Source: an uncultured Christiangramia sp.
GTDB taxonomy: Bacteria > Bacteroidota > Bacteroidia > Flavobacteriales > Flavobacteriaceae
Direction of reading: 5' to 3'
Length of the DNA stretch: 64,000 nt
NCBI RefSeq assembly: GCF_913046405.1
Contig: NZ_CAJWRQ010000001.1
Location: 1-64,000, forward strand
This document shows positions 11,575 to 14,140 of the stretch, piece after piece. The translations under genes and the position numbers were made by a program. A model generated the notes under the pieces. The model was not told the DNA's origin and ran no database searches. It saw only the letters and a program-made list of their open reading frames with translations. How positions within the stretch are numbered: position 1 is the first letter of the stretch; every line of letters begins with the position of its first letter.

Positions 11575-11595
11575 CTTAAGCATTCGATATAATAT

Positions 11596-11625
11596 AAAAA
11601 AGCCGGTTCTATACCGGCTTTTTTT
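11596..11625. terminator. Terminator between convergent prs and ppx
   Basis: AAAAAGCCGGT and ACCGGCTTTTT around a TCTAT loop. The right arm's T run overlaps the last bases of the ppx gene, so it can serve both strands. Confidence 0.85.
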
Positions 11626-13213
11626 ATGCTTGATTCTGGTTCTTTTGACTTTCTATCGTGATGATCTCGATCTCTTTTCCGGTAATATCCTTCAGCAAAT
11701 CTGCTTTGCGTAAACCTCCCCAGACTTCCAGTTCCGGCTCCCCTAATGTTGTTATTTGCAACCTGATCTTTTCTGAAGATTTAATGATCTCCAGTTCCTG
11801 GACGTTCTGATAGTGACTGCGATCCAGGCCGTCGGCAAGTCGGAGTAAAGCGGCTAGTTTCTCGATCCTCTTGCGTAGTTTTTTTGATAACTGTTTATAT
11901 AAATAATGTCTCTTCTTAGGAACAGTTCTTCGGTGATAGCGAGCGGTGTGCGCCATGATATTGATCTCATCCTCGGTGAAACCACGTAGATCTGCATGCC
12001 TAATAATATAAAGTGCATGTTTATGATGTTTGCGATAGTTGATATAATATCCAATATCGTGCATTAATGCTGCATATTCCAGTAGTTCCCGATCTCCTTC
12101 TTCCATTTTCAGATCTTTTTGAAAAGCATCGAATAACTGCAGGCTCATCGCTGCCACATGCCGGGAGTGATCTTCCATCCAGTGGCATTTGCGTAAAAGT
12201 TCATGGACACTTCGCTTACGCGGTTCAGGATAATTAGCGACAAGATCAAGTTTTGGACGTTCCTTTTTAATAAAATCGAGGATCATCCCATCTCTAAGCG
12301 CAGCTTCAGAAATTTTAATTTCTTCGATATTAAATTCCTTGATAAGATATTTTACCAGCACCATTCCCGGGTTAATGATATCTATTCTTTTTTCATCCAG
12401 CTCACTTATATCCTCACGTTCTTTGCGATCAAGCTGAATAAAATCCTTGTAGAATTTTTTAAATTCTGAAACATCAAAAACCAGTTCGTTCAGGCTCATA
12501 TTGGCCGTATGAGAGTTTCTGTTGGCGATCATGGCGCCTATATTCTCCATGGTTCCGGAACTTCCAATAATGGTTCTAACTTTATGTTTTGCTAGTATTT
12601 CTGAAAGTTCACCAAGTTCTTTTTTATAATGTTTTTTTAAAGCTTTGATCTCTTCTTTACTAATAGGGTCATTAGAAACAAATTTTGCCGCCATGCGGGC
12701 AACGCCGAGTTTCAAACTCTGAGAATAGAGAAACTTCTCATTATTACCCAGAATAAATTCCACGCTTCCTCCTCCAATATCCACCATCAATACCAGTTCT
12801 TCGGAAAGTGCTATACTATGCTGAACCGCCAAACCAATCAATGCTGCTTCCTTACTACCCGAAATCGCTCTTACTTTAATGCCAGATTCAGCTTTCATTC
12901 GCTGAATAAAATCTCCTCCATTGGTGGCTTCCCTAATGGCTGAAGTAGCAAAGGCGATAATTTCTTCCACATGCATGCTATCGCATAGAAATTTTATCCT
13001 TTTCATAGCGTCAAGGCCACGTTGCATGGCTTCTTCACTCAATTTATTCTCCATTCCTTTTTCAGCAAGAATGACCATCTCCTTCAGCTTGTCTACTGTT
13101 CTAAAACTTCCGTCAGGATAAATATCTACCAGTACGGCATGAAAAGAATTCGTACCGAGATCGATCGCGGCGATTCGCTTATTGGCATTTACAGTTTCAG
13201 ATAGGTTCTCCAT
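11624..13213 (-). CDS. ppx: Ppx/GppA-type exopolyphosphatase with HD domain
   Basis: The 529-residue product shows the ASKHA fold of polyphosphate/pppGpp phosphohydrolases: phosphate-binding AAIDLGTNSFHAVLVDI (about residues 14-30), IIAFATSAIREATNG and LMVDIGGGSVEFIL, then GSSGTMENI. The C-terminal 200 residues form an HD-type domain with HSRHVAAMSLQLFDA, YAALMHDIGYYINYRKHHKH and MAHTARYHR. It degrades polyphosphate or pppGpp; sequence alone does not separate these roles. Single-gene unit between prs and rplY. Confidence 0.88.
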   Translation of the reverse strand: MENLSETVNANKRIAAIDLGTNSFHAVLVDIYPDGSFRTVDKLKEMVILAEKGMENKLSEEAMQRGLDAMKRIKFLCDSMHVEEIIAFATSAIREATNGGDFIQRMKAESGIKVRAISGSKEAALIGLAVQHSIALSEELVLMVDIGGGSVEFILGNNEKFLYSQSLKLGVARMAAKFVSNDPISKEEIKALKKHYKKELGELSEILAKHKVRTIIGSSGTMENIGAMIANRNSHTANMSLNELVFDVSEFKKFYKDFIQLDRKEREDISELDEKRIDIINPGMVLVKYLIKEFNIEEIKISEAALRDGMILDFIKKERPKLDLVANYPEPRKRSVHELLRKCHWMEDHSRHVAAMSLQLFDAFQKDLKMEEGDRELLEYAALMHDIGYYINYRKHHKHALYIIRHADLRGFTEDEINIMAHTARYHRRTVPKKRHYLYKQLSKKLRKRIEKLAALLRLADGLDRSHYQNVQELEIIKSSEKIRLQITTLGEPELEVWGGLRKADLLKDITGKEIEIITIESQKNQNQA

Positions 13214-13347
13214 GTACTTCAGAATTGATTGAGTTTCAATTTATACAAATAATAGATGAACTTCCAGTGAGAGATCTCAAAATCATGATCTCTGTAATTC
13301 ATCTGAACTTTTTAAGGATCAGTATTTTATAGATTCAGAAAAAGCTT

Positions 13348-13355
13348 TACTTTTG
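13348..13355 (+). promoter_or_regulatory. rplY promoter -7 box
   Basis: TACTTTTG matches the Bacteroidota TAnnTTTG box. It places transcription start near 13360 and gives a leader of about 70 bases. No clear -33 TTTG is seen. Confidence 0.6.
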
Positions 13356-13372
13356 CAACCTCAAAATTTTGG

Positions 13373-13410
13373 CAAATGAAGGCAGTCCAAAGCGGACCCG
13401 ACGACATTTG
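13373..13410 (+). promoter_or_regulatory. Structured 5' leader of rplY
   Basis: Two nested pairings are visible: outer CAAATG (13373-13378) with CATTTG (13405-13410), inner GTCC (13385-13388) with GGAC (13394-13397) around an AAAGC loop, separated by an internal loop (AAGGCA / CCGACGA). It lies in the predicted transcript just ahead of the L25 start at 13432. The shape suits an autoregulatory site where L25, normally a 5S rRNA-loop binder, contacts its own mRNA. That role is inference. Confidence 0.45.
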
Positions 13411-13431
13411 TTATAACTTTAAATTACAATA

Positions 13432-14088
13432 ATGAAATCAATTACGATCAACGGATCTAAAAGAGAAAGCGTAGGCAAGAAGGCAACGAAGGCACTACGT
13501 AATGCTGGACAGGTTCCTTGCGTATTGTACGGCGTAGAAGGTGATCCACTACACTTTGCAGCAGAGGAAATCTCATTCAAAGACCTTGTGTACACTCCAG
13601 ATGTACATACAGTTAAAATTAAATTGAAAGATGGAAAATCTTTTGATGCGATTCTTCAGGATATTCAATTTCACCCAGTGAATGATGCTATCCTTCACAT
13701 CGATTTCTACCAGATCTTCGATGATAAGCCAATTACGATGGAAATTCCTGTTCACACTGAAGGTGTTGCAAGAGGGGTTAAGAACGGTGGTGTACTAAGA
13801 TACAACCTTCGTCGTCTTAAGGTAAGAGGTTTACCTGGAGATCTTCCAGATTACATCGTTGCAGATGTATCTAAACTTAAAATTGGTCAGAAACTTTATG
13901 TAACTGGTGTTGCTAGTGAGGATTATGTGATCCAACATCCAGATAACACAGTAATCTGCCAGGTAAGAACATCCCGTAATATTGTCGCTCTTGATGACGA
14001 TGAGGACGAAGATGAAGTTGCTCCAGATGAAGTGCCAGCTACTGAGACTGATGATGTAGCAGCCGTAAAAGAAGGAGAAGACAACTAG
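13432..14088 (+). CDS. rplY: 50S ribosomal protein L25/general stress protein Ctc
   Basis: This 218-residue L25 of the long (CTC/TL5) type binds 5S rRNA. Seen: the N-terminal RNA-binding domain ([20 protein letters not shown], then GQVPCVLYG), the TL5 C-terminal domain ([20 protein letters not shown], then [20 protein letters not shown]), and a very acidic tail ([15 protein letters not shown]) usual in Bacteroidota. It has its own promoter and leader, and a terminator separates it from pth. Confidence 0.97.
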
Positions 14089-14110
14089 TCTTATTCTTTA
14101 ATTCATATAG

Positions 14111-14140
14111 AAAAGCATTCCACTTCGGAATGCTTTTTTT
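14111..14140 (+). terminator. rplY terminator
   Basis: AAAAGCATTCC and GGAATGCTTTT around an ACTTC loop, followed by a T run. Confidence 0.85.

Follow-up and report, generated by a model that had tools for sequence, protein, structure and literature searches.

A covarying hairpin in the predicted 5′ leader of rplY in the marine genus Christiangramia, a candidate autoregulatory site for ribosomal protein bL25

A translational operator of the enterobacterial rplY gene, which encodes ribosomal protein bL25, was reportedly described by Aseev et al. in 2015. The bL25 of Escherichia coli acts on a hairpin located before a weak Shine–Dalgarno sequence to repress its own translation, and the known features of bL25 control are found only in species with a short bL25 (PMC10931766). 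Excerpts of Eckert and Weinberg 2020 (PMC7247131) list 20 r-protein leaders, including those for S4, S15 and S16 in Flavobacteria and none for bL25; the same excerpts also deal with S4 and L13 in Bacteroidia and with L19 homologs, and mention an L25 leader for Enterobacteria only. Among the matches listed, our search of the open-access literature returned no bL25 leader outside Enterobacteria.

Here, we analysed a stretch of 64,000 nucleotides (hereafter, the window) from an uncultured Christiangramia sp., in which a preliminary description had noted a promoter box, two nested pairings and a start codon in the order expected for an L25 autoregulatory leader. All of these elements are present in that order, namely the box at 13348-13355, CAAATG (13373-13378) with CATTTG (13405-13410), GTCC (13385-13388) with GGAC (13394-13397), and the ATG at 13432. 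The flavobacterial sigma-A box TAnnTTTG is placed at -12 to -5 in excerpts of PMC9723704, and the transcription start is therefore predicted at 13360. The features of the locus are as follows.

13348..13355, + strand: sigma-A-type box TACTTTTG, which fits the flavobacterial TAnnTTTG
13360..13431, + strand: predicted 5′ untranslated leader of rplY, 72 nt (from the box-to-start distance and the sequence)
13371..13378, + strand: outer stem, 5′ arm GGCAAATG, containing an ATG at 13376-13378 (fold, alignment)
13376..13432, + strand: possible upstream open reading frame (uORF) with a stop overlapping the rplY start by one base; length and frame not conserved
13379..13383, + strand: invariant internal-loop strand AAGGC, with 0 changes on the tree in 23 leaders
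13384, + strand: base covarying with position 13398 (A-C in the window, G-U in others); possible wobble pair
13385..13388, + strand: inner stem, 5′ arm GTCC (fold, covariation)
13394..13397, + strand: inner stem, 3′ arm GGAC (fold, covariation)
13400..13404, + strand: opposite internal-loop strand GAC[G/A]A, varying at the fourth base (R) only
13405..13412, + strand: outer stem, 3′ arm CATTTGTT (fold, alignment)
13432..14088, + strand: rplY, encoding a two-domain bL25 of 218 aa (Ribosomal_L25p + Ribosomal_TL5_C; domain match)
14109..14139, + strand: predicted intrinsic terminator hairpin 3′ of rplY with a T run at its end (fold)

The box was not listed by the promoter scan, which uses E. coli-type hexamers, and the hairpin at 14109-14139 was not listed by the pattern scan; the fold of the latter in the window is far from chance (z -5.47, 0 of 200 shuffles). 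The opposite strand between prs and rplY (11624-13213) carries what we take to be a ppx/gppA-like gene. In 23 of the 24 genus genomes, this ppx gene stands upstream of rplY in opposite orientation and separates it from prs. Thus, rplY appears to be the sole gene of its predicted transcription unit, as judged from the terminator read in the window. A further hairpin, flanked by T runs on both strands, is located between the convergent prs and ppx genes (11590-11630). It is likely to be a bidirectional terminator, and several sub-threshold Rfam matches fall on it.

The nested hairpin spans 13371-13412 and ends 19 nt before rplY (21 nt when counted from its core). Beyond CAAATG/CATTTG, its outer stem in the window has two further outward pairs (13371-13372 with 13411-13412), both of which are G-U. 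The 72-nt leader folds into this hairpin at -13.6 kcal/mol, but with a z of only -2.05 and 9 of 200 shuffles folding as well; when 19 coding bases are added, z becomes -1.10 and 34 of 200 shuffles are as good. The single-sequence fold of the window leader is therefore little better than chance, and the hairpin is accepted as real because of the comparison of genomes described below, that is, its presence in 23 of 24 genomes and its compensatory changes.

The leader shares several features with the enterobacterial bL25 operator: a 5′ UTR hairpin of irregular shape that ends some 20 nt ahead of the start codon (21 nt before the ATG for the predicted rplY hairpin of E. coli K-12) and the lack of a strong Shine–Dalgarno sequence. 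However, the E. coli hairpin, compared by eye, has a different fold without AAGGC/GACRA; the bL25 of the enterobacterial system is of the short single-domain type, whereas that of the window has two domains (Ribosomal_L25p and Ribosomal_TL5_C); and the hosts belong to Gammaproteobacteria and Flavobacteriia, respectively. In addition, no GAGA element was seen before the rplY gene of the window. On these tested features, the leader falls outside the enterobacterial bL25 leader family. It resembles the leaders of Eckert and Weinberg in being a lineage-restricted covarying 5′ UTR structure upstream of an r-protein gene, but none of those leaders is for bL25, and no Rfam 15 family matches the present one.

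rplY was located in all 24 genomes of the genus of the window, and the hairpin was found in 23 of them, the exception being locus L171. The 23 leaders share a core of the form C-NNN-TGAAGGC ... GACRACA-NN-TG, 36-39 nt in length, which begins 16-20 nt after the box and ends 19-24 nt before the rplY ATG. The sequence TACTTTTGC is present in all 23 of these leaders, in L171 and in nine short leaders of neighbour loci. A named species, C. sediminis (L196), has the same leader as locus L157 of the genus set, and the set is assigned to Christiangramia on this basis.

As a check, the preliminary description had proposed a covariation analysis of aligned rplY leaders, and among the genus leaders compensatory changes were indeed found in both stems. 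Covariation was computed on the 16 distinct sequences, with 500 shuffles and slid alignments as controls. Paired cells amounted to 90.1% in the 16 distinct rows versus 83.5% in the shuffled alignments. Five of the 12 pairs changed on both sides, compared with 2.2 in shuffled alignments (3 of 500 shuffles), and the number of both-sided cells was 14, compared with 4.3 ± 1.8 (0 of 500) and at most 5 in the slid controls. Another measure, the number of further pair types, was no better than in shuffles (265 of 500). Pairs 1/43 and 18/25 (alignment columns) are broken in 12 and 6 of the 16 rows, respectively; RNAalifold recovered both helices without these two pairs and added a pair, 11/33, inside the loop, between the first G of AAGGC (13381) and the C at 13402.

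In the outer stem, CAAATG/CATTTG is replaced by CAGATG/CATCTG in L164, by CAGGTG/CACCTG in L165 and by CAGTTG/CAGCTG in L166. Pair 5/39 has changed from A-U to G-C in all three of these leaders, which requires three changes on the tree, and pair 6/38 has changed from A-U to G-C in L165 and to U-G in L166; invariant pairs stand on either side of these compensating pairs. In the inner stem, pair 17/26 is C-G in 12 of the 23 leaders, U-A in 10 and C-C in one (L165), in which the other three inner pairs hold. Columns 14/29 read G-U in 11 leaders, A-C in 10, and G-A and U-C in one each; G-U and A-C wobbles can share one shape. What is found is a conserved, covarying RNA structure in the predicted 5′ UTR of an r-protein gene, the general mark of an r-leader. 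By architecture and covariation, it would be placed among the r-leaders, with bL25 as the putative ligand.

CAAATG/CATTTG is also an inverted repeat that adjoins the promoter, as would be expected if it were an operator bound by a transcription factor at the DNA level, downstream of the start site. This is very unlikely. The sequence of the repeat itself changes in a compensatory manner, the length of the core varies from 36 to 39 nt, and pair 2/42 is G-U in 14 of the 23 leaders (G-C in five and A-U in four), a combination that pairs in RNA but breaks a DNA repeat. Selection maintains the hairpin as an RNA structure in almost every sampled species of a single marine genus.

In the internal loop, no change on the tree was found in AAGGC, GAC and A, whereas the variable position R (column 34) changed five times. 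For scale, we used codons 2-165 of rplY, in which no length change was seen: third positions show a mean of 2.9 changes, with 24% unchanged, and first positions a mean of 0.47 changes, with 77% unchanged. One unchanged column is thus unremarkable, but seven consecutive ones (columns 7-13), facing GAC-A-CA in untranslated sequence, are remarkable.

The 5′ arm of the outer stem contains a start codon in all 23 leaders (ATG in 21, GTG in one and TTG in one). Control by a uORF, in which this start codon is translated and the ribosome traffic opens the hairpin or couples to rplY, the hairpin tuning the use of the uORF start instead of binding bL25, would explain why the codon is followed by K-A-V in 22 leaders and K-A-F in one, and why third-codon columns 14, 17 and 20 changed 5, 5 and 8 times on the tree while the first- and second-position columns 12, 13, 15, 16, 18 and 19 changed 0, 0, 1, 0, 2 and 1 times. 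Ahead of the codon stands the 5′ sequence after which rplY begins immediately in Salinimicrobium and Salegentibacter, and the stop of the uORF in the window overlaps the ATG of rplY. However, the uORF varies in length from 4 to 28 codons and stops in all three frames relative to rplY; in L153, it is in frame with rplY with no stop between them. (A 19-residue N-terminal extension of bL25 is possible in L153.) Furthermore, the AAG codon is constant even at its third position, and GAC-A-CA on the 3′ side of the loop is kept in any frame, also past stop codons. The stem that contains the uORF start is predicted to be closed, with a mean pair probability above 0.6 in 21 of the 23 leaders (0.60 in L165 and 0.39 in L164). 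The uORF start has C at -3 in all 23 leaders, although A at this position favours initiation according to excerpts of PMC6847099; this counts little, because the start of rplY itself has A at -3 in only 8 of the 23. RNA constraint accounts for more of the pattern than uORF coding, and we regard uORF control without bL25 as rather doubtful, although the start codon may function.

We consider it somewhat probable that the hairpin is a genus-specific bL25 leader, with bL25 as its ligand and autogenous translational repression as its action. bL25 is the likeliest ligand because rplY is predicted to be monocistronic in the window, and autoregulation is preferred because rplY appears to stand alone in its unit and because the E. 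coli hairpin lies at a similar distance from the start codon; we infer both the ligand and the mode of action. The rplY mRNA would begin near 13360. While ribosome assembly consumes bL25, the start region, which is A/U-rich and mostly unpaired, would be free, and the 30S subunit would load. Once free bL25 exceeds its 5S rRNA sites, it would bind the irregular hairpin; the likeliest site is the invariant internal loop AAGGC/GAC-A between the two helices. Bound at the upstream edge of the 30S footprint, the protein would block or slow initiation. Across the 23 leaders, the mean predicted unpaired fraction from -15 to +12 ranges from 0.54 to 0.82. Genes of F. johnsoniae have low structure from -20 to +20, according to the excerpted text of PMC6847099, and the end of the hairpin falls at the edge of this region.

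Loop E of 5S rRNA is the binding site of bL25. Structural imitation of the rRNA site is common among r-leaders, though they do not require it. The mimicry of 5S rRNA that the preliminary description had thought plausible is weakly supported. When the leader loop was compared with the 5S rRNA of its own species, the loop-E similarity score was 7.75 against a shuffled mean of 4.25; 0.94% of shuffles did as well with the register fixed at the chosen one, and 8.2% with the register left free. GAUGGUA/GAGAGUA of loop E lies under a 4-bp helix, as does GAAGGCR/GACRA of the leader, but about half of the letters differ between the two loops. Sequence mimicry of 16S, 23S or 5S rRNA at large was rejected: the best match of the bipartite motif in the rRNA operon of genome G265 was 13/17, and 199 of 200 shuffled motifs did equally well.

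Direct pairing of the leader with 5S rRNA in trans, by which free 5S rRNA would be sensed, was suggested by the window species, in which GAAGGC and GACGACA are together complementary to a run of 13 bases close to the 5S rRNA 3′ terminus (L275). This is extremely unlikely, because the complementarity does not extend to the genus. Among the 20 genomes with a 5S match (4 of the 24 gave none), 17 have GUCGCC, not GUCGUC, in every copy read, although one of these 17 (G263) has no leader; G270 has GUCGCC in one of the two copies read. The 5S base opposite the variable position is C both for leaders with A there (seven genomes with a 5S sequence) and for those with G, and no covariation in trans between leader and 5S rRNA was found.

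The distribution of the hairpin is narrow. A covariance model (R1) built from the genus leaders themselves gave a single strong match, always at rplY (48-66 bits), in each genus genome except one of the 24 (23 in all), together with seven weak secondary matches (17.6-22.8 bits). Three overlapping samples, drawn from the family (397 genomes), the order (395) and the phylum (395), each include the genome of the window; in them, no strong match was found outside the genus, the strong in-genus matches being in 2, 1 and 1 genomes, respectively; R1 searches over more than 40 genomes used stricter filters, by which weak relatives could be missed. Seven non-genus genomes of the 397-genome sample gave weak matches (E 0.0026 to 0.05). 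The best of these (L335) was discarded as repetitive DNA, coding-looking by eye, on a contig other than that of its rplY, and the sole non-genus match of the second sample (L344, E 8.4e-4, 27 bits) falls within an open reading frame. The core pattern TGAAGGC..GACRACA was found in none of 150 family-sample loci and none of 19 further family loci (0/169), and in 1 of 80 named loci, namely the Christiangramia locus L196. A search of a 9-kb stretch against Rfam 15 at E 5 gave no match at the leader, and a search of 13340-13450 gave no leader family, the one match being a chance match on the other strand (8.2 bits versus a cut-off of 100). In these samples, strong matches were confined to one genus, and a family-wide flavobacterial leader was rejected. 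Of the flavobacteria-wide covarying rplY leader initially envisaged, the covariation holds in both stems, but its range shrinks to this genus.

The hairpin might also bind a regulator other than bL25 (a small molecule, a small RNA or some RNA-binding protein), or its role might be confined to stabilising the 5′ end of the mRNA. A general stabilising role fits the finding that 25 of 26 own-promoter rplY leaders of at least 40 nt outside the genus have an unrelated hairpin near the predicted transcript start. However, a stabiliser would need no invariant internal loop, and a general regulator should have further targets, whereas the model gives one strong site per genome. These alternatives are unlikely, if the most credible of those considered here.

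To place the origin of the hairpin, we used a tree of the rplY region with 31 rows, in which 16 of the 28 inner branches are well supported. The hairpin-bearing L166 is basal in the genus (the other 23 group together with support values of 92/90), L171 is nested inside (91/87), and the presence of the hairpin requires two changes on the tree. Judging from these sequences, the hairpin was probably present in the ancestor of the 24 sampled genus genomes and lost once, in L171; it is absent from the neighbour genera examined. That L171 represents an early branch that never had the hairpin was rejected, since the hairpin carriers as one clade gave a p-AU of 0.0019, this clade having been named after the first tree was seen. 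Gene order also speaks against it, as L171 has ppx upstream of rplY, whereas the basal L166 does not; L166 and four tested neighbour loci keep prs upstream of rplY.

In Salinimicrobium (L201, L202) and Salegentibacter (L195, L197, L198), the stretch from box to start reads CAGCCTAAAATTTTT-(C)AACA, and rplY starts at once. The stretch of L171 is nearly the same, and that of L199 ends in GAATA. The box-to-start length is 75-81 nt in the hairpin leaders and 20 nt in L171, so that the hairpin appears to have been inserted, as 55-61 nt, between rplY and the old start region. The upstream ATG and the rplY ATG are surrounded by the same 7 to 9 bases in 13 of the 23 leaders, a repeat by which the clean loss in L171 could be explained. 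The fact that L171 lives without the hairpin also makes the hairpin dispensable. In a further scenario, the leader would have been born within the genus by such an insertion after the ancestral start (~55-61 nt), the old start codon would now lie in the stem, and the binding of bL25, with a loop that is only partly loop-E-like, would close both the uORF and the rplY start, so that the uORF would act as a protein-gated switch. We consider this combination improbable.

Leader types are not always distributed according to the gene tree. Placing L152, L157, L161, L164, L167 and L168 in one clade, in contrast to L159, L169 and L170, gave a p-AU of 1.15e-16, and L157, L167 and L168 have an identical spacer. 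These sequence data suggest that leaders may have been exchanged between species, in which case some of the changes would not be new mutations. Because of this conflict between leader types and the gene tree, the five to six tree changes at 14/29 and 17/26 are not counted as independent.

Should bL25 be the ligand, the leader described here would be, within the sources searched, the first one for bL25 from outside Gammaproteobacteria, and it would mean that two-domain bL25, too, can be autoregulated, contrary to the statement in PMC10931766. With its placeable origin and one loss, the leader may provide a compact system for watching an autoregulatory RNA arise and disappear.

The 26 leaders outside the genus were drawn from 249 loci, of which those with no recognised start or box, with a tail of >110 nt or that were repeats of others were skipped; some of the rows are near-duplicates, and the hairpin of L194 has only three pairs. 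The non-genus loci include L016, L018, L036, L091, L110, L116, L188, L189, L192, L218, L225, L232 and L273. An example of the unrelated leader hairpins is CAGCCCTCAAAATGAGGG, found in Winogradskyella loci.
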